Assembly (NCBI GenBank): GCA_003221515.1
Contig: QHSI01000106.1
Coordinates: forward strand, 62,001 to 126,000
Length of the DNA stretch: 64,000 nucleotides
Direction: 5' to 3'
DNA from: Candidatus Rokuibacteriota bacterium
GTDB lineage: Bacteria > Methylomirabilota > Methylomirabilia > Rokubacteriales > CSP1-6
The position numbers and the translations under genes are program-made. Below, piece by piece: positions 41,706-63,279 of this stretch. Position 1 is the first letter of the stretch, and each line of letters opens with the position of its first letter. Below the pieces are notes generated by a model that was given only the letters and a program-made list of their open reading frames with translations, was not told where the DNA came from and did no database searches.

Positions 41706-42259
41706 CCCGCTGGGCCGGAGCGACCTGTCGCCCGAACCGCACGCAACTCAACCCCAAGCTCGCGCGCAAGCCGTCGAGTCGCCGGCGTCGCCGGCACCGG
41801 CCCCACGCCAACGCCAGTACCCGTCGCCATCGCCGGCGCGGATGCGGCGGCACGCTCCGAACCGCCAGCCGCATGCGCGAGCGGCTGCTCGCTCACATTC
41901 GCGACCGTCGCGGGCTGCCGGCGGGGCAGGGGCGAGGGGGCGGGGGGAGGGGTCCGGGGCGAGTGGGGTTCCGAAGCCCCGCGACCCCTCCCCCCACCTC
42001 CGTGCCCCGCCCCCACCGCCGACGAGTCGTCGAAAGTGACGAGCACCTCCCCGACTTTGACGGTCTGGCCGGGCTGGATGTGAACGCGAGCGACGCGACC
42101 AGCGAACGGGGAAGGAATCTCGACGGTGGCTTTGTCGGTCTCGACCTCGAGCAAAGGCGCGTCCTCGGCGACGACGTCGCCCTCGCCGACCAGCACCTTG
42201 ACGATCTCGGCCTCGGTCAGTCCCTCGCCGAGATCGGGCAGCGCGAACGGGCGGGGCAT
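41690..42259 (-). CDS. 2-oxoacid dehydrogenase E2, lipoyl and subunit-binding part (frameshifted)
   Basis: The ORF starts 'PRPFALPDLGEGLTEAEIVK'. The lipoylated Lys is in 'ETDKATVEIPSPF' (about residue 43), and a peripheral-subunit-binding domain starts at 'PATRRLARELGVELRAV'. Between them, 'GAGHGGGGRGRG...' is encoded by a large G/C-rich imperfect palindrome at about 41920-42020. After the PSBD the frame ends at 41690; the catalytic domain continues in another frame. Confidence 0.88.
   Translation of the reverse strand: MPRPFALPDLGEGLTEAEIVKVLVGEGDVVAEDAPLLEVETDKATVEIPSPFAGRVARVHIQPGQTVKVGEVLVTFDDSSAVGAGHGGGGRGRGASEPHSPRTPPPAPSPLPRRQPATVANVSEQPLAHAAGGSERAAASAPAMATGTGVGVGPVPATPATRRLARELGVELRAVRATGRSGPAGPGCR
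41920..42020. repeat. Imperfect G/C-rich palindrome in the E2 interdomain linker
   Basis: GGGGGGAGGGGTCCGGGGC is matched across a short loop by GCCCCGCGACCCCTCCCCCC, with looser pairing outside. It does not contain the 88-nt core of the elements at 48386 and 59519, but shares the G-rich/C-rich arm style and the linker location. Confidence 0.6.
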
Positions 42260-45332: not shown

Positions 45333-46814
45333 ATGTTGCTCTCTATGATGCCCGCAGGCATGGACCCTCCCATGGATAGCGTCCCGACGCCGGTCGAGAG
45401 GCAACATGTCGGGGTTCTCACCATCCTGTCCGCCGTCGTGCTCGTCCTGTTCCTCGCGTTCATGGCGTGGCTCCAGTACGGCGGATCGCGCGTCGAGGAG
45501 ATGGTGGAGCCCGAGCGCGCGCTCGCGCTGATCGTGGGACGGACCATGGACCTCGACGAGGGCATCGAGCGCGGGCCGGCGTGGGAGCGCGCCGTCTATC
45601 GGTTGCTGCTGAGCGACCGCGCGAGCGACGTCGCCGAGGCGCTCGGCTGGTACGAAGAACTGGCGGCCGCATCGTTCGATCCGGCCGTCGACCTGCACCT
45701 GGCGATCCTCGAAGGCGAATCCGGCCGGCCGGCGAGCGTGCGGCGCCGTGTCGACGAGTGGGCGCGCCGCCCCGATCCCATGCCGGCGCTCGCACGGCTC
45801 GTCGCCGCCGCCTATCTTCCGGAATCGCTCGACACCGGGGACGCCGCGACCCTCGACGACGAGACGCTCGCGGAGGTGCTCGAGCCAGGCTGGTTCAGGG
45901 ACCGCATCGCCGTGCGCCTTGCGGTGCGGCCCGGCGACGCCGAACTGCTGGATCGCGCGAACGCGTCGCAGGCCGCCCGCTCGAGGCCGCTGCTGAACCG
46001 CTCGCGCGCGATGATCGTGGTGGAGCTGGTCCTGCTCGTGGCGGGGGGCCTGGTCCTGGTCCGGCTCGTGCTGCGGGGCGACAGGCTCGCGCGCATCGGC
46101 GCGGTCGTGCTCCCGCCGCCCTGGCGGGGACGGGTGGGCGCCGGGGTCCTGATTCGCGGCGGCGCGCTCGGCGCCATCACGCTCGTCGCGCTCTACTTCT
46201 TCACGTTCACCGGATCCGATCGACCGTTCGCGCGGGTGGCGCTCGGCGTGGCGACGAACGCCGCGTTCTTGCCGGTGCTGCTGCTCGCCCGCCGGCGGCT
46301 GCTCGAACCGTCCGGGGTGCCCTTCGCCGAGGGGCTCGGGCTGATGCCCGCGGCGGGCGGCATGCGCCGCCTCCTGTTCGTGTTCCTCGCCGTGCTGTCG
46401 CTCGGGCAGCTCGGCGGCGTCGCGATCGACCTGGCGGGGCGGCGGGTCGGGCTCACCGCGCACTGGACGGAGTGGTTCGATCGCGATCTGGCGTGGGGCC
46501 CGCCGCTCGTGGTCGGCCTGACGGTCCTCGACACGGTCGTCCTCACGCCGGTGTTCGAGGAGATCGTGTTTCGCGGGCTCGTGTTCGCGACCCTTCGCCG
46601 GCGCTTCGGCGTGCCCGGCGCGGCGCTGCTGAGCGCCGGGATCTTCGCGATCGCCCACGGCTACGGCGTGCTCGGCTTCGCCGCCGTCTTCTGGAGCGGT
46701 CTCCTGTGGGCGTGGGCATACGAGCGGACCGGCAGCCTCCTGCCGTCGATCGCGTCGCACGCGGCGGACAACCTGATGGCCTCGCTCTCCGTGGTGCTGG
46801 CGCTCCGTGTCTAG
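45333..46814 (+). CDS. CPBP-family intramembrane metalloprotease with large N-terminal domain
   Basis: It has a membrane helix near residue 35, a soluble helical domain of about 150 residues, then several spans. The protease signature is 'VFEEIVFRGLVFATLRRRFG' (EExxxR), then 'IFAIAHGYGVLGF' and 'SHAADNLMAS' (HxxxN), as in CAAX-prenyl/Abi proteases. Five in-frame ATGs (45333, 45345, 45348, 45360, 45372) make the start uncertain. The stop overlaps the LigD start, an unusual link between an intramembrane protease and end joining. Confidence 0.85.
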   Translation: MLLSMMPAGMDPPMDSVPTPVERQHVGVLTILSAVVLVLFLAFMAWLQYGGSRVEEMVEPERALALIVGRTMDLDEGIERGPAWERAVYRLLLSDRASDVAEALGWYEELAAASFDPAVDLHLAILEGESGRPASVRRRVDEWARRPDPMPALARLVAAAYLPESLDTGDAATLDDETLAEVLEPGWFRDRIAVRLAVRPGDAELLDRANASQAARSRPLLNRSRAMIVVELVLLVAGGLVLVRLVLRGDRLARIGAVVLPPPWRGRVGAGVLIRGGALGAITLVALYFFTFTGSDRPFARVALGVATNAAFLPVLLLARRRLLEPSGVPFAEGLGLMPAAGGMRRLLFVFLAVLSLGQLGGVAIDLAGRRVGLTAHWTEWFDRDLAWGPPLVVGLTVLDTVVLTPVFEEIVFRGLVFATLRRRFGVPGAALLSAGIFAIAHGYGVLGFAAVFWSGLLWAWAYERTGSLLPSIASHAADNLMASLSVVLALRV

Positions 46815-49587
46815 AGGCCGCGGCCTCGACGAGTACCGGCGCAAGCGCGATCCCGCGCAGACGCCGGAACCGTTCGGCGGCCCCAGCGCCGGCGCGGGCA
46901 ACCGGTTCGTCGTCCACAAGCACTCGGCGCGCCGGCTCCACTACGACCTGCGTCTGGAGCTCGACGGCGTGCTGAAGAGCTGGGCGGTGCCGAAGGGACC
47001 GTCCATGCGCTCCCACGAAAAGCGCCTGGCGGTGCACGTCGAGGATCATCCGCTCGAGTACGCGGACTTCGAGGGTGTGATCCCCGAGGGTAACTACGGC
47101 GCGGGGCCATCGATGGTGTGGGATGCCGGCCGCTTCCAGCTCACCAAACCCGAGCCCGCGCGCGAGCAGATCGAGCGGGGGAAGCTCGAGTTCGAGCTGT
47201 TCGGGTTCAAGCTGCGCGGGCGGTGGACACTGGCGCGCATGAGCGGCAAGGACAAGGACTGGCTGCTGCTCAAGAAATCGGACGAGTTCGCGAGCGAGAT
47301 CGAGCCGGTCGAGCGCTTCCCGGAGTCGGTGCTCTCGGGGCTCACGATCGAGGAGCTGCGCGACGGCGCGGGGCGCCTGGACACGCTGCGCAAGCGGCTG
47401 GTCGAGCTCGGGGCGCCGCGCGCGGAGGTGACGCCGCGCGGCGAGCTCTTCATGCTGGCGACGCTCGGCGAGGAGCCGTTCTCGAATCCCGGCTGGCTTT
47501 TCGAGATCAAGTACGACGGCGTCCGCGTGCTGGCCTGGCGCGAGAACGACCGCGTCGAGCTGCGTGGGCGGAGTGGTCAGGACTTCGCGGGACGCTATCC
47601 CGAGGTGACGGCGGCTCTCCGCGCGTTGCCGCTCGACCGATTCTGCCTCGACGCCGAGGTCGTGGCGCTCGACGAGACGGGCCGCGCGAGCTTCCAGCTC
47701 CTGCAGGCGCGCATGGGCCTGACGCGCCCCGCCGACGTCGAGCACGCGCGCGGCGCCGTGCCGGTCAGCGCCGTCGTGTTCGACGTGCTCGCGCTCGATG
47801 GGCGCGACGTGCGCCGGCTGCCGCTCGAGGCGCGCAAGGAGTGTCTGAAGCTCCTGCTGCCCCCACGGGGGTTCGTCCACTACGGCGATCACGTGGTCGG
47901 CCACGGCATCGAATTCCTCGACGCGGCGTGCGAGCAGCGTCTCGAGGGCATCGTCGCCAAGAAGCTCGGCAGCGCGTACGTCGCGAAGCGCTCGCGGGAC
48001 TGGCTCAAGATCAAGTGCCAGCTCCGGCAAGAGTTCGTCATCGGCGGCTACACCGAGCCCCAGGGCTCGCGCGCTCGCTTCGGCGCTCTGCACCTCGGTC
48101 TCTACGATCAGGGCGGGCTCGTCTACGTGTCGAAGGTCGGCACGGGCTTCGACGACGCGACGCTCGACCGCGTGTGGGAAAAGCTGGGTCCGCTGGATCG
48201 CGCGACGCCGCCGTTCGCCTCCGGAACGCCCGCCGGGCGCGGTCATCACTGGGTCGAGCCTCGGCTCGTCTGCGAAGTTCGCTTCACCGAGTGGACGCGC
48301 GATGGCGGGATCCGGCACCCTGCTTTTCTCGGGTTGCGCGAGGACAAGCGTCCCGAGGAGTGCGTGCGTGAGGTTCCGGTGGAGGCGCGAGGGGGCGAGA
48401 CGGAGGAGGCGGGGGCGGAGGGGATCGCGGGACCACGCGGCGCGCGTGCGCTGCCCGGTCGCGGCTGGGCTCCATCTGGGCGCGGGGGGTCCGACGACGG
48501 TTCACGGGAACGGGTCCCGTCGACCCCCTCCGCCCCCGCCTCCTCCGTCTCGCCCCCTCGCGGTCACCCGCGAGCTGACGATACGCCGTCCTCTGGCGAT
48601 GCCGTCGCGCCGCGGCGGCGCGGGCGGGCCGGGAGTGGCGCGCGAGCATCGCGCAACTCGTCTTCGTCCTCGTCGGCGGTTCCGGTGGAAGAGAAGAAGG
48701 TGGTGATCACGAATCCGAGGAAGGTGTTTTGGCCGGACGAGGGGTATAGCAAGACGGATTTGATCGAGTATTACGATGCGGTGGCGCCGTGGTTGCTGCC
48801 GTATTTGCGGGATCGGCCGCTGGTGCTCACGCGGTTTCCCGATGGGATCAAGGGGAAGTCGTTCTTCCAGAAGGACGCGCCCGAGTGGGTGCCGTCGTGG
48901 ATCCGGACCGAGCGGATCCATGCCGACGACGCGGACCGCGACATCGACTACTTCATCGTGAACGATCGCGAGAGCCTGCGCTACGTCGTGAACATGGGGA
49001 CGATCCCGCTCCACCTCTGGAGCTCGCATCTGCCCACGCTCGATCGGCCCGACTGGCTCGTGCTCGACCTCGATCCCAAGGGCGCGCCGTTCACCGATGT
49101 GGTCAAGGTGGCGCGCACGCTCCACGGCGTGCTCGACGAGCTGGAGCTGCCGAGCTACGTCAAGACCTCCGGCGCGACCGGGCTCCACATCGTCCTCCCG
49201 CTCGGTGCCCGCTACGACTACGAGGTGACGCGCACCTTCGCGCGGCTGCTCGCCACGATCGGCGTCGAGGAGGAGCCCGCGATCTCGACGGTCGCCCGCC
49301 CGCTGCGCGCGCGGGGCGGCAAGGTCTACATCGACTGGGGCCAGAACGGCCACGGCCAGACGATCGTCGCGCCGTTCTCGGTGCGCCCGCTGCCCGGCGC
49401 GCCGGTGGCGTGCCCGCTGCGCTGGGAGGAAGTCACCGCGCGCCTCGATCCCGCGCGGTTCACGATCAAGACCGCCCCCGCGCGCTTCGAAAGGGTCGGC
49501 GATCCGCTGGCGCCGGTCCTGTCGGGCGCGATCGACGTCACGGCCACACTCAAGCGCCTGGAGCACCGCGCAGCGAAGACTCGCTGA
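46807..49587 (+). CDS. ligD: Multifunctional DNA ligase LigD (phosphoesterase-ligase-polymerase)
   Basis: This 926-residue protein starts at GTG 46807. Domain order: 3'-phosphoesterase (about 30-170; 'HKHSARRLHYDLRLELDG'), ATP-dependent ligase (about 210-525; nucleotidyl Lys in 'FEIKYDGVRVLAW'), a long linker, and primase-polymerase (about 635-915; 'WLVLDLDPKGAPFTDVVKVA'). It processes, fills and seals Ku-bound ends. Residues about 527-585 are encoded by a perfect-arm palindromic element (48386-48562, 177 bp = 59 codons), inserted in frame in the linker. Just after it a Ser run and lower-GC codons start the polymerase domain. Confidence 0.95.
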   Translation: MSRGRGLDEYRRKRDPAQTPEPFGGPSAGAGNRFVVHKHSARRLHYDLRLELDGVLKSWAVPKGPSMRSHEKRLAVHVEDHPLEYADFEGVIPEGNYGAGPSMVWDAGRFQLTKPEPAREQIERGKLEFELFGFKLRGRWTLARMSGKDKDWLLLKKSDEFASEIEPVERFPESVLSGLTIEELRDGAGRLDTLRKRLVELGAPRAEVTPRGELFMLATLGEEPFSNPGWLFEIKYDGVRVLAWRENDRVELRGRSGQDFAGRYPEVTAALRALPLDRFCLDAEVVALDETGRASFQLLQARMGLTRPADVEHARGAVPVSAVVFDVLALDGRDVRRLPLEARKECLKLLLPPRGFVHYGDHVVGHGIEFLDAACEQRLEGIVAKKLGSAYVAKRSRDWLKIKCQLRQEFVIGGYTEPQGSRARFGALHLGLYDQGGLVYVSKVGTGFDDATLDRVWEKLGPLDRATPPFASGTPAGRGHHWVEPRLVCEVRFTEWTRDGGIRHPAFLGLREDKRPEECVREVPVEARGGETEEAGAEGIAGPRGARALPGRGWAPSGRGGSDDGSRERVPSTPSAPASSVSPPRGHPRADDTPSSGDAVAPRRRGRAGSGARASRNSSSSSSAVPVEEKKVVITNPRKVFWPDEGYSKTDLIEYYDAVAPWLLPYLRDRPLVLTRFPDGIKGKSFFQKDAPEWVPSWIRTERIHADDADRDIDYFIVNDRESLRYVVNMGTIPLHLWSSHLPTLDRPDWLVLDLDPKGAPFTDVVKVARTLHGVLDELELPSYVKTSGATGLHIVLPLGARYDYEVTRTFARLLATIGVEEEPAISTVARPLRARGGKVYIDWGQNGHGQTIVAPFSVRPLPGAPVACPLRWEEVTARLDPARFTIKTAPARFERVGDPLAPVLSGAIDVTATLKRLEHRAAKTR
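48386..48562 (+). repeat. Palindromic element with perfect 38-bp arms, inside ligD (copy B)
   Basis: Arms 48386-48423 and 48525-48562 are perfectly inverted over 38 bp (G-rich left, C-rich right). The 101-nt loop contains an 88-nt core (48432-48519) that aligns without gaps to 59559-59646; by my hand count 65 of 88 positions agree. Core blocks: ACCACGCGGC, CGGCTGGGCTCCATC and ACGGGAACGGGTCCCG. The total length is a multiple of three and the frame stays open. Confidence 0.85.
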
Positions 49588-58519: not shown

Positions 58520-59500
58520 GTGTATGATCATCGCCGTGTCACCCGTGAGTTGTCGAGACGAGACGCTGGCCGTGAGATTCACGGCCGGCGTTCATCCAGC
58601 TCACGAGCCAGTGAGGCGCTGATCGCCGACACCACCCTGGGCGCGCTCGCGTCGCTCGGTTCGGCGCTGATGTGGGCGGTCACGAGTATCCTGGCGCGCT
58701 CGCTCATGCCCGGCATGGGTTCGGTGGCGGTCAACGCGATCCGCTCCACGATCGGCGGGACGATCCTCGTCGTCTGGGTGCTCGCGACCGCGGGCGCCGG
58801 CGCGTTCACGGGGGCGTCCGTCGGCGCCTGGGTCCTGCTCTCGCTCTCGATCGTGGTCGCCATCGCGATCGGCGACACGGTGTTCTTCGAGAGCACCCGC
58901 GCGCTCGGGCTCGGCCGGGCGATGACGATCTCGACGACCTATCCGATCGGCGCGGCCGCCATCGCCGCCGTGTTCCTCGACGAGCCGCTCACCCTGCCGA
59001 TCGTCGGCGGCACGATCCTGACGCTGACCGGGGTCACGCTGATCCTGGCGCCGTGGGCCGGGCACGCGCCCGAAGAGCGCTTCTGGTTCGGCGTCGGCAC
59101 CGCGACGCTCGCCTCGGTGGCGTGGGCGGTCTCGACGGTGCTCGTCAAACCGCCGCTCGCCGAGATGACCCCGGTGACCGCCCAGGCGATCCGCTTACCG
59201 CTCGCCGCTGCGCTGCTCTGGGTCACACCGTGGGCGCGCTCGGCGCCGCGCGATCTCGCGCGGAGCTCGCGAGGCGCCCGCGTGCGCGTGGCGGTGCTGG
59301 GCGCGCTGACCGCCGTGAGCTCGGTCACGTTCGTGGCGGGCGTGAAGTATGCCGGTGTCACCGTGGCGTCGGTGCTGTCGGCGACCGCGCCGATGTTCGG
59401 GATCCCGCTCGCGTTCATCTTCCTGAACGAGCGGCTGACTTACCCCGCGCTCCTCGGCGCCGCCACCACGATCGTCGGCATCATCGTTCTCCACCTCTGA
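58520..59500 (+). CDS. DMT/EamA-family transporter
   Basis: It has ten predicted spans in two EamA halves ('ASLGSALMWAVTSILARSLM', 'TISTTYPIGAAAIAAVFLDE'; second half 'GVTVASVLSATAPMFGIPLA', 'IFLNERLTYPALLGAATTI'). It is a probable exporter of amino acids or metabolites. The start is unclear: GTG 58520 and TTG 58550 give an Arg-rich leader, while the family-like part starts near 58620, where only a CTG is available. The 3' end is followed by a very strong palindrome. Confidence 0.85.
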   Translation: MYDHRRVTRELSRRDAGREIHGRRSSSSRASEALIADTTLGALASLGSALMWAVTSILARSLMPGMGSVAVNAIRSTIGGTILVVWVLATAGAGAFTGASVGAWVLLSLSIVVAIAIGDTVFFESTRALGLGRAMTISTTYPIGAAAIAAVFLDEPLTLPIVGGTILTLTGVTLILAPWAGHAPEERFWFGVGTATLASVAWAVSTVLVKPPLAEMTPVTAQAIRLPLAAALLWVTPWARSAPRDLARSSRGARVRVAVLGALTAVSSVTFVAGVKYAGVTVASVLSATAPMFGIPLAFIFLNERLTYPALLGAATTIVGIIVLHL

Positions 59501-59518: not shown

Positions 59519-59681
59519 CGTCGGCCGGGTGGGCGGGGTGTGGGAGGGGGCGCCGGCTACCACGCGGCACGCGTCCGCTGCCCCCGGGCGGCTGGGCTCC
59601 ATCCCGGCGCTCCACTCCCGCTATCACGTGACGGGAACGGGTCCCGGCGCCCCCTCCCACACCCCGCCCACCCGGCCGACG
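59519..59681 (+). repeat. Palindromic element with perfect 38-bp arms between convergent genes (copy A)
   Basis: Arms 59519-59556 and 59644-59681 are perfect inverted repeats of 38 bp around an 87-nt loop. The 88-nt core (59559-59646) aligns without gaps to copy B in ligD, but the arm sequence is different. It occupies almost the whole gap between the DMT stop (59500) and the amidohydrolase stop (59683), so it must act as a two-way barrier or terminator as RNA. Confidence 0.85.
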
Positions 59682-59682
59682 A

Positions 59683-61269
59683 CTACGCTGGCGAGCTACG
59701 GAAGACGATCTCGCCGCCGACGAGCGTCAAGACGGGTGTGATGTACGGGATGCGGGCTTCTGGGCAGGTGAACACGTCATCGGAAATCGCGACGAGGTCG
59801 GCGAGCTTGCCGATGGCGAGGGAGCCGAGATCGTGCTCCTGGCGTGAGGCGTAGGCGTTCCAGGTCGTGAACGAGCGTACGGCCTCGGCACGCGTCATCC
59901 GCTGCTCGGGTTGCCACTCGCGATGCTCGCCGCTCAGCGGTCGCCGGGCGACCGCGGCGTAGATGCCGTGGAACGGGCTCGGGCTCTCGACGGGAAAGTC
60001 GGAGCCACCGGCGATGACGACCCCCGTGTCCAGCAGTGAGCGCCACGCGTAGGCGCCGCGGAGCCGGTCCGGACCCAGGCGCTCGGCGGCCCATTCCATG
60101 TCGGAGGTGCAGTGGGTCGCCTGCATGCTCGGCAGGGCGCCGAGCTGCCGGAAGCGCGGGATATCGCGCTCGGTCAGGATCTGCGCATGCTCGACGCGAA
60201 AGCGATGGTCGCGTCGGGGCGCGCGGGCCAGCGTCTGCTCGAGCGCGTCGAGCGTGAGCGTGTTCGCGCGGTCGCCGATGGCGTGGACGCAGATTTGGAA
60301 TCCGCGTTCTGCGCCCTCGAGGGTGAGCCGCGCGATCTCCTCGGGTGGGATCAGGACGAGCCCGGTGTTGCCGGGATCGTCGCAGTAGGGCTCGTGCAGC
60401 GCGGCGCCGCGCGAGCCGAGCGCGCCGTCGATCATCAGCTTGAGCGCGCCGATCACCACGCGGCCGTCGCCGAGCGTCTCGGGGCCCCGCTCGCGGTAGT
60501 GCGCCCAGGTCGACGCCGAGCGCGCGGCCACCGCGGCGTAGTTCCGGAACGGGAACTGGCCGCGCTCGACGAGCCGGCGATACGCAGTGAGCGCGTAGAG
60601 CTCGGCGCCCATCTCATGGATGCCCGTGAGCCCCGCGGCAAGGCACTCGGCGATCGCCTCTCGCACGGCCTGATCGAAGCGCTCGTCTGAAGGCCGGGGC
60701 TCGGCGCGCTGGAGCAGGTGCTGGGCCGTGTCGATCAGCACGCCCGTCGGCTCGCCCCGCGCGTCCTTCATGATCAGCCCACCGCTCGGATCCTTGGTCG
60801 CAGCGTCGATGCCAACGGCGGCGAGCGCGGCCGAGTTCGCCCACGTCGCGTGGCCGTCGATGCGGTTGAGCGACACGGGATGGTGGGGCGCGGCACGATC
60901 GAGCGAGGCCTTCGTGGGCCATTCGCGTCCGGGCCATCGGTTGTGGTCCCAGCCGCGCCCGCCCACCCACTCGCCGCGCGGCAGGGTGGCCGCTCGCGCT
61001 GCGACACGCTCGGCGACCTCGGTCTCCGAGCCGGCGCCGCCTGCGTCGAGGCTGAGCCGCGCGCGGGCCAGGTGCATCAGGTGACCGTGGGCGTCGACGA
61101 GCCCGGGGACCACCGCGCGCCCGCCGAGGTCGATGGTTTCTTCCGCGTCGGACACGTTCGCGTCGGCGCGGCGCCCGGCGAAGACCACGCGCCCGTCACG
61201 GATGACCAGCGTGTCGACGACCGCGTCCGACGCATCCAGCGTGTAGATGCGGCCGTTGGTCAGCAGCAC
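59683..61269 (-). CDS. YtcJ-like amidohydrolase
   Basis: The best start is GTG 61269 ('LLTNGRIYTLDASDAVVDTL'), giving 528 residues. Metal site motifs are 'VPGLVDAHGHLMHLARARLS', 'ICVHAIGDRANTLTLDALE', 'HRFRVEHAQIL' and 'GSDFPVESPSPFHGIYAAV'. Members deacylate N-acyl or formamide compounds. The frame is open upstream into TrpEG only because TrpG is damaged; the original TrpG stop (61272-61274) lies two bases before this start. Confidence 0.88.
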   Translation of the reverse strand: MLLTNGRIYTLDASDAVVDTLVIRDGRVVFAGRRADANVSDAEETIDLGGRAVVPGLVDAHGHLMHLARARLSLDAGGAGSETEVAERVAARAATLPRGEWVGGRGWDHNRWPGREWPTKASLDRAAPHHPVSLNRIDGHATWANSAALAAVGIDAATKDPSGGLIMKDARGEPTGVLIDTAQHLLQRAEPRPSDERFDQAVREAIAECLAAGLTGIHEMGAELYALTAYRRLVERGQFPFRNYAAVAARSASTWAHYRERGPETLGDGRVVIGALKLMIDGALGSRGAALHEPYCDDPGNTGLVLIPPEEIARLTLEGAERGFQICVHAIGDRANTLTLDALEQTLARAPRRDHRFRVEHAQILTERDIPRFRQLGALPSMQATHCTSDMEWAAERLGPDRLRGAYAWRSLLDTGVVIAGGSDFPVESPSPFHGIYAAVARRPLSGEHREWQPEQRMTRAEAVRSFTTWNAYASRQEHDLGSLAIGKLADLVAISDDVFTCPEARIPYITPVLTLVGGEIVFRSSPA

Positions 61270-61271
61270 GC

Positions 61272-63279
61272 TCAGCCCGCGGCGCGACAGCTCGCCACGA
61301 CGTTGCGGATCAGGCGCAGCCCGACCTCGTCGCCGAAGCTCAGGGCCGGCCGTGAACTCCTTCGGCAACCCCTCGAAGATCTTGCCGCCGATCACCTGGA
61401 TGCGCGACGCCTTGCCGTGCATCGGGTAGTCGAGCACGCCCAGCTCGCCGCCGAAGTGCTCGACGATGCCCTGCAGGCCGAGACACACGCCGAATACGGG
61501 CAGGCGCCGCCCGATCGCGGCGGCCAGCGTGCCGGCGACGTCGAAGTCGCTCGGCCGCCCGGGGCCGGGGGACAGCACGACCAGCTCAGGGCGCAGATCG
61601 TCGAGTGCCGCGTGAGGAAAGCCCGCGCGCAGGGTGACGACGTCGGCGCCGGTCTGGCGGAAGTAGTTCGCCAGCGTGTGAACGAACGAATCTTGATGGT
61701 CGACCAGCAAGACCCGCATGCCCTCGCCCAGGCGCTCGGCGTCCGCGCGCGCGGCGCGCGGCACACCGCGCGGCCGCCGGATGGCGTCCAGGAACGCCGC
61801 CGCCTTCAAGTGCGTCTCGCGCTCCTCCCCGTCGGGATCCGAGTCGTAGAGCAGGGTGGCGCCGGCACGGATCTCGGCGATGCCGTCCTTGACGCGCACG
61901 GTGCGGAGCGTGAGGCCGGTGTTCATGTTGCCGTCGAAGCCCAGCAGGCCGACCGCGCCCCCGTACCAGGCGCGCGGCGAGCGCTCGTGGTCCTCGATGA
62001 ACTGCATCGCCCACGTCTTGGGCGCGCCGGTGACGGTGACCGCCCACGCGTGGGCCAGAAAGGCGTCGAGCGCGTCGAAGCCCTCACGCAGCCGGCCCTC
62101 GACGTGGTCGACGGTGTGGATGAGCCGCGAGTACATCTCGATCTGGCGCCGCCCGATCACGCGCACGCTGCCCGGCCGGCAGATGCGCGACTTGTCGTTG
62201 CGGTCGACGTCGGTGCACATCGTCAGCTCCGACTCGTCCTTCTCGGAGTTGAGCAGCCGCTGGATCTGCGCGGCGTCGCCCAGCGGATCGTCGCCCCGCG
62301 CGATCGTCCCCGAGATCGGGCACGTCTCCACACGATCGCCGTCGACCCGCACGTACATCTCGGGCGAGGCGCCGACCAGATACTCGCCGGCGCCCAGGTT
62401 GAAGAGGAACCCGTACGGCGCGGGGTTGCGCTCTCGAAGCCGGCGAAACAGCTCGGACGGCGGGATCGCGCACTGCTCGAAGAACGTTTGCCCGGGGACC
62501 ACCTCGAACAGGTCCCCGCAGCGAAACGCCTCGCGCGCGCGCTTGACGCCGGCGGCGTATTCGCCCGGCGCGTGATCGCCGGCGCGCGGCGCCGTCGATG
62601 CGCCCGCGTAGCCGCTGACGCTGCCGTCGCGCGGCCGCCCCACCGTCGAAACACCAGCGTGCTCGAAGTCGTAGCGCCGGCGCTCGGCCCGCTCGCGCCG
62701 GTGGTCGACGATCACGAGCTCGTCGGGCAGGTAGAGCACGAGATCGCGCTGGTCGGCCGGCCGCGCGAGCCGGAGGCGAATCGGCTCGAACTGGAAGGCC
62801 AGGTCGTAGCCGAACGCGCCGTAGAGTCCGAGGTGCGCGTCTTCAGAGCTCGCGAAGAGATCGATCACTGCCCGAAGGATCGTGAAGACGGAGGTCTGCT
62901 TGCTCCGGTCCTCCTCGGCGAACCGCTGGGTCGGCGGCGCGATCTCGCCGGCCAGCGTGGTGTCGGTGCGCTCCGTCCACGTCACCGCGGGCAGGGCGGC
63001 CAGCGCGCCGGCGACGGCAGGCAGGAGCACGCGACCGCGGTCGTTCAGGGCCGACACGCGGACCGCCGCGCCGCGCGACGTCAGCTCGAGCGGCGGATCG
63101 ACGAACCCCATGTCCCAGCGCGTGTAGCGGCCGGGGTACTCGTAGCTCGAGGCCAGCAACACGCCTCGATGCGCATCGAGCCCGTCGATGACGGGCTCGA
63201 TGGCCGCCTCGACCGGCAGGTCCTCGACCGTGCGGTGGACGGTGATGCCGCCGCGGGTGACGTACTGCTCGGTGCGCAT
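61272..63279 (-). CDS. trpEG: Fused anthranilate synthase TrpE-TrpG with deleted, frameshifted TrpG end
   Basis: The TrpE part (residues about 1-510) is complete ('DLFEVVPGQTFFEQCAIPPS', 'TCPISGTIARGDDPLGD', 'DRNDKSRICRPGSVRV'). The TrpG part starts 'MRVLLVDHQDSFVHTLANYF' and keeps its Cys ('VFGVCLGLQGIVEHFGGELG'). After 'GLPKEFTAG' near 61345 about 49 residues are missing, including the HPE motif with the catalytic His and Glu. The true C-terminus ('GDEVGLRLIRNVVASCRAAG', stop 61272) survives in another frame. Glutamine use should be lost; ammonia-dependent activity could remain. A trp attenuator precedes it. Confidence 0.88.

Follow-up and report, generated by a model that had tools for sequence, protein, structure and literature searches.

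Candidatus Rokubacteria, an uncultured lineage of soil bacteria, carry a dispersed family of non-coding palindromic elements, each a conserved core set between two long complementary arms whose sequence differs from locus to locus. The element is real, general within one bacterial family, and undescribed in the open-access literature we searched, which held no paper on such elements in Rokubacteria. The best overall explanation is probably a dispersed element family whose arms are homogenised at the DNA level, and the process responsible is likely template switching, or an equivalent gene conversion, at the hairpin during replication.

Two copies, A and B, lie in the window, by which we mean the whole 64,000-nucleotide stretch of contig QHSI01000106.1 that was analysed. 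L-numbers below are locus labels and G-numbers genome labels; genome-wide copy counts rest on sequence searches of the genomes.

Anatomy of the two window copies

The features of the two copies and their neighbours are as follows.

59519..59556 (+): copy A left arm, G-rich, 38-bp perfect inverted repeat
59557..59643 (+): copy A conserved core, the 87 nt that separate the perfect arms
59559..59568 (+): copy A block ACCACGCGGC, which forms the 5' side of the core hairpin GCGGC..GCTGC
59589..59603 (+): copy A block CGGCTGGGCTCCATC, with almost no variation among 27 copies
59631..59646 (+): copy A block ACGGGAACGGGTCCCG, whose GGTC pairs with GACC opposite in most copies
59644..59681 (+): copy A right arm, C-rich, matching the reverse complement of the left arm throughout
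48386..48423 (+): copy B left arm, perfect over 38 bp (over 42 bp, to 48427, there is one mismatch)
48424..48524 (+): copy B conserved core and inner stem, with blocks at 48432-48441, 48462-48476 and 48504-48519
48525..48562 (+): copy B right arm
46807..49587 (+): LigD-like gene holding copy B in frame, as residues ~527-585
58520..59500 (+): EamA transporter gene, ending 18 bp before copy A
59683..61461 (-): Amidohydro_3 gene (start provisional), its stop adjoining the copy A right arm (convergent)

The arms of copy A (59519-59556 and 59644-59681) are 38 nt long and 100% complementary, and those of copy B (48386-48427 and 48521-48562) extend to 42 nt and contain one mismatch, which leaves the outer 38 nt perfect; arm comparison thereby confirms the perfect 38-bp arms that a preliminary description of this DNA had reported for both copies. 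The longest perfect inverted repeat in the window (spacer <=130) is 38, against 11-15 in 20 first-order Markov shuffles. The two cores align ungapped from ACCACG to GGGTCCCG with 65 of 88 columns identical and the three blocks in register, in agreement with the gapless 88-nt core, 65 identities and equal block spacing described earlier. Copy B has 101 nt between its two 38-bp perfect arms because the arm-adjacent inner stem belongs to the family's conserved region. RNA folding gave z-scores of -11.1 and -9.9 for the two window copies.

Copy B occupies the linker between the ligase C-terminal and Prim-Pol domains of LigD, where the frame is open in three species. The gene itself (46807-49587) has the domain order phosphoesterase, ligase, Prim-Pol, and in at least three species copy B is inserted in frame into its linker. 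Beside copy A, a 1198-aa open frame (59683-63279, minus strand) comprises Anth_synt_I_N, Chorismate_bind and GATase domains, anthranilate synthase-like, together with Amidohydro_3, and represents either a fusion or two genes within one open frame. The window also holds a core-less hairpin at 41919-42018, with imperfect 41-nt G-rich and C-rich arms around an 18-nt loop, which looks like the arms of an element minus its centre.

A dispersed family within one bacterial family

The 5.1-Mb genome to which the window belongs contains the block CGGCTGGGCTCCATC 26 times without a mismatch, always with arms except for one copy cut by a contig end and one that has decayed. Aligned copies share a core of the form CGACCACGCGGCACGCGTNCGCTGCCCC...CGGCTGGGCTCCATCCGGGCGC...GCCGCTTGGAGGGAACGGGTC, with 31 columns invariant in 27 copies. 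Most elements are ~150-200 bp long (106-200 measured), with a conserved core of ~80-94 nt and arms of ~20-50 bp; the 5' arm is G-rich and, except for an inner GGGGTCG, different in each copy. Some pairs of the inner stem are compensatory among copies.

A covariance model, the search that the preliminary description had proposed, recovered further copies in this genome and its relatives: ~32 in the window's MAG and 10-49 in each of the other eight genomes of the genus. The element is present in 9 of 9 genus genomes, 25 of 57 family genomes and 10 of 24 family genera, and the same model found no copy in 38 genomes outside the family. Named public contigs that carry it are nearly all Candidatus Rokubacteria MAGs. 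Within the family its distribution is patchy; in one genus, one of four genomes has none and the other three have 23-33. Dozens of copies per genome thus bear out the suggestion of a new family with a conserved core and locus-specific arms. The element was not found in plasmids or phages; the core pattern did turn up in two IMG/VR contigs, but without arms, and was set aside there as a chance match. Inverted pairs, a forward copy followed by a reverse one 230-320 bp away, are common (L003/L004, L012/L013, L021/L022, L081, L121, L128 and L132), a trait shared with REP elements.

Position relative to genes

We classified 121 copies by their neighbours: 33 forward and 22 reverse copies lie between tandem genes, 30 between convergent genes, 12 between divergent genes and 7 inside genes, the rest having a gene neighbour on only one side of the retrieved stretch. 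Three of the ~7 in-gene copies are one orthologous LigD site. Among forward copies with a gene end on the left, 54 of 69 start within 60 bp past the stop codon. Site choice or retention appears to favour convergent gene ends and the first few tens of bases downstream of stop codons. Genes recurring beside the copies belong only to common families (ABC transporter, acyl-CoA and similar) and were discarded as candidate partners.

This placement, both the 54 of 69 starts close behind stop codons and the 30 to 12 ratio of convergent to divergent sites, suits an alternative in which the element is a structured RNA or an mRNA 3'-end element, a terminator or stabiliser whose stem is kept by selection on the transcript and may have any sequence. 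The very stable RNA fold and the compensatory inner-stem pairs point the same way. Against it, some shared sites hold the core in one orientation or the other depending on the genome, and between tandem genes the core lies 33 forward to 22 reverse. Searched against Rfam 15, the whole window gave no match above a gathering threshold, its sub-threshold matches being only long miRNA hairpins, and in copies A and B, the two checked, no T-run, and so no U-tract in a transcript, directly follows the right arm. We consider this explanation unlikely, also in view of the mismatches and indels described below.

Arms vary independently of the core

Over all pairs of 122 copies, identity of the core and identity of the arms are scarcely correlated (r = 0.07). 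Two cores that are 96% identical have arms only 59% identical, where shuffled arms give ~60%; over copies in general, arm identity is ~0.63 against 0.595 for shuffled arms. Within a copy, by contrast with this divergence between copies, the helix is nearly intact: of 123 copies with a helix, 29 are free of mismatches and a further 60 contain one or two. Gapped alignment of the arms gives a mean of 3.9 mismatches and 1.7 indels per element, partly at the core edge.

G-T type pairs make up ~1% of arm pairs and A-C pairs ~2.3%. So few wobble pairs count against selection on an RNA stem alone, because such selection would leave more of them. Together with the two core orientations found at the same sites, their rarity weakens the earlier proposal of a structured RNA with interchangeable stems. 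The mismatches are also asymmetric: on the core strand A-C exceed G-T mismatches 59 to 21 (40 versus 13 elements, p = 3e-4), whichever direction the neighbouring genes run. The asymmetry would reflect either more tolerance of wobble on the other strand or strand-specific damage or repair. It can be read in favour of the RNA alternative, as wobble more frequent when the opposite strand is read, and it counts against template switching in that simple symmetric correction does not predict it.

The arms are not plain host sequence, because their base bias is constant (left arm ~54% G and 29% C; flanks ~34-38% G and 31-35% C) and the inner GGGGTCG is conserved. Nor did the core enter hairpins that were already there: we rejected insertion into pre-existing terminator hairpins since core-less long hairpins are nearly absent, with four in 692 kb and none of them a plain pre-existing hairpin. 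Three long perfect hairpins may be described individually. That at L138:6086-6223 retains nothing of the core except its ACCACGC and ACGGGT ends, that at L076:4031-4183 is a member of a second family (see below), and that at L074:1-143 has another centre.

Paired change of the arms at sites shared between species

Many sites are common to several species, with flanks 80-97% identical; the arms there have diverged and remain complementary. Between orthologs, 356 arm columns have changed: 222 on both sides with complementarity kept, 24 on both sides without it and 110 on one side, counts to be read with the provisos that helices were picked for complementarity without gaps, a choice that makes compensated changes and mirrored indels easier to find, and that ortholog pairs overlap and are not independent. 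Of 72 left-arm indels, 46 have a mirror-image counterpart in the right arm, including 3 of 3 for L014 (window copy B)/L134 and 2 of 2 for L024/L078. Mirrored multi-base indels are hard to reach by single compensatory steps, a further point against the RNA alternative. In L023 versus L182 both arms have been rewritten jointly while the upstream flank is 97% identical. Most sites compared with the close relative G002 carry the copy in both genomes, and the turnover of the family therefore looks slow.

Shared sites also bear on whether the palindromes are artefacts in which short-read assembly folded one arm into two. Every genome used is a short-read metagenome assembly, which leaves room for such an error; the same sites recur, with diverged but mutually consistent arms, in MAGs that were deposited separately and come from different species and sampling sites, and in three species LigD reads through copy B in one open frame. 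An artefact is exceedingly improbable, the least probable of the explanations considered here.

Empty orthologous sites have 3-30 nt between the aligned flanks and contain no arm (for instance L188/L189/L191 at the L027 site and L183-L185 at the L023 site). The idea that one arm was present before insertion finds no support at these sites in sister genomes; the comparison L072/L055 is ambiguous as to an arm beforehand.

Inversion of the core

At ~26 shared sites the orientation of the core could be compared: it is the same at ~20 and inverted at 6. Inverted cores occur at L025/L204, L015 (window A)/L193, L194, L195, L136/L150, L074/L130, L086/L104 and L028/L208. Homology between the arms is plain in L028/L208 and L025/L203/L204 despite the turned core. 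The core of window copy A runs forward in its own genome, and G002, G007 and G006 have it reversed; G003 has no element at this site. Some of the apparent inversions, especially that of window copy A, where the arms are less similar, could be independent insertions at a favoured site.

A second core, and apparent copying from the flank

A second, unrelated family in G007 and G008 has a 58-59-nt core, ACTGCTGCGATCCGG...CGCTGACTACA, with inner GGGATCCG/CGGATCCC. Its arms are again near-perfect and locus-specific, mostly 46-51 bp (one of 26 bp), one pair being perfect over 49 of 49. Members are L223, L226, L228, L229, L233 and L235 (G007, G008) and L213-L215 (G007, G008, G001). In three species, G001 among them, the L007 site holds this family; G000 and G002 carry the first family there. 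The behaviour of the arms is therefore not tied to one core.

At the L007 site, the left arm of the second-family copies L214 and L215 includes the upstream gene's stop codon, which is conserved in all species. The left arm of L214/L226 bears CTCTAGTCGGCTCGCCG and the right arm its reverse complement, exact in L214. Since a host stop codon is mirrored in the right arm of L214, the direction of copying was apparently from host flank to opposite arm, as far as the sequence of this locus indicates.

These observations lend something to an alternative in which only the core is mobile and the arms are made at each landing site from local sequence by fold-back copying, and so are locus-specific from the start. 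The arms do not travel with the core (r = 0.07, above), a second family with another core has the same anatomy, and the arm that covers a host stop codon and is mirrored opposite suggests copying from the flank. Empty sites, however, hold no arm sequence; the constant base bias and inner GGGGTCG of the arms are unlike plain host sequence; no target-site duplication exceeds chance; and arms at shared sites are inherited and drifting. This alternative seems to us quite unlikely, slightly more so than the RNA one. A broader version is less remote, though still doubtful: a class of mobile hairpins, represented in this one genus by no fewer than two unrelated cores, whose only heritable, propagated part would be the core, while the arms would be rewritten and extended from local DNA by fold-back copying, each element building its own locus-specific stem and having its core flipped via an undescribed mobilising system.

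Probable template switching at the hairpin

We return to homogenisation of the arms at the DNA level by template switching. In the proposed sequence of events, one arm would be copied from the other, so that mismatches are fixed; arm sequence could then drift freely, as a pair; the copying would at times turn the core round; and it could run beyond the arm into flanking host sequence. DNA-level correction accounts for near-perfect arms, paired drift, mirrored multi-base indels and core inversion, all four. The core is presumably conserved since propagation or a host function depends on it, whereas for the arms it may be enough that they are complementary and G-rich on the 5' side.

Where a polymerase switches templates between the arms of an inverted repeat, the arms become homogenised and the spacer inverted (PMC8604942); such switching can also create perfect stems and keep them perfect (PMC8794818). 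Both hallmarks are present here, in homogenised arms with coupled multi-base change and in an inverted spacer at 6 of ~26 shared sites. The preliminary description had left the arms as either made anew at each site or kept identical by correction. Correction is the better half of that pair, because homogenisation and inversion are the published signature of template switching, and it gains from the paired arm change and core flips; making anew from a pre-existing arm finds no support at the empty sites compared. Against template switching, the spacer inversions reported from yeast (PMC8604942) change only 2-5 bp, far below the 90 nt here. RecA-type recombination between the arms is an alternative route to arm change and core flips. 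The behaviour of the arms is explained most simply by a known mutational process on an unusual scale.

Dispersal of the elements

The dispersal of the elements is real. The hairpin-templated mobile element suggested in the preliminary description may apply, and the searches for Y1 transposase and reverse transcriptase gave no candidate enzyme for it. If the elements were miniature transposons of the REP/REPIN kind, mobilised in trans by a RAYT or another HUH transposase, this would account for their dispersal, their palindromic form and extragenic position, their frequent arrangement as inverted pairs at distances of 230-320 bp, and their patchiness among genera. A search for Y1_Tnp (PF01797) was empty in all 9 genus genomes (0 of 9) and positive in controls such as E. 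coli, and the arms are not conserved between copies; we regard this origin as highly improbable. RVT_1 reverse transcriptase is absent in 7 of 9 genus genomes, the window's own included, which speaks against a retron or another RT-linked element. Direct repeats at arm ends are about as frequent as in shuffled pairs and give no sign of target-site duplication. An assignment to MITEs was rejected, as arm ends differ between copies and the flanks have no recurrent transposase-like gene cluster.

Loss of the palindrome nuclease SbcCD is a possible permissive cause, linked to tolerance of long palindromes. No SbcD was found over the model cut-off in 57 family genomes, but genera without the element lack it too. 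An Mre11-like metallophosphoesterase lies at a contig end in the window's own genus (L238:2481-3437, minus strand).

Comparison with known systems and significance

The closest parallels are template-switched inverted repeats in yeast (PMC8604942), in RNA stems (PMC8794818) and in classic quasipalindrome correction, which share with the Rokubacteria element identical arms, coupled multi-base change and spacer inversion. Those cases are isolated, with short arms and inverted spacers of a few bp, whereas the Rokubacteria elements form a dispersed family whose arms measure 30-50 bp and whose conserved spacer spans ~90 nt. Perfect coding palindromes in the mitochondria of Nematomorpha likewise have long, perfect arms; these come and go and are actively held identical, for which conversion or template switching has been proposed (PMC6649704); unlike the Rokubacteria element, they have no conserved core, form no repeat family and lie in mitochondrial coding sequence.

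REP, BIME and REPIN elements with their RAYTs are also dispersed, mostly extragenic, often paired and near gene ends (PMC3733652, PMC3116915). REPs are 20-40 bp long, with stems mostly of 6-9 bp that define the family and tags GTAG/CGTC (PMC3733652, PMC3116915), in contrast to the long, locus-specific arms found here in a genus without RAYT. Rickettsia palindromic elements (RPEs) resemble copy B in their in-frame position inside a protein gene, and they lose repeat identity with age (PMC6649704). In Rokubacteria arm identity is maintained, and the in-gene habitat is rare (~7/121). The contrast drawn earlier, that the element is the opposite of REP and RPE in having a constant core and variable arms, holds.

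In integron attC sites structure is kept while arm sequence varies, and the outer boxes are conserved around a variable centre. The Rokubacteria element shares the kept structure and variable arms and differs in having its conserved part at the centre and its variable part outside; we know of no attC R-box motif in its core.

These elements record, in nature and in many replicates, how the arms of long palindromes are homogenised and their spacers inverted, with hundreds of copies, many shared sites and graded divergence. Whether lasting perfect stems are caused by selection or by template-directed copying becomes testable by counting. The usual rule for bacterial repeats, that the arms identify the family, is broken by the Rokubacteria element, and repeat finders that cluster by arm sequence would therefore miss such elements.
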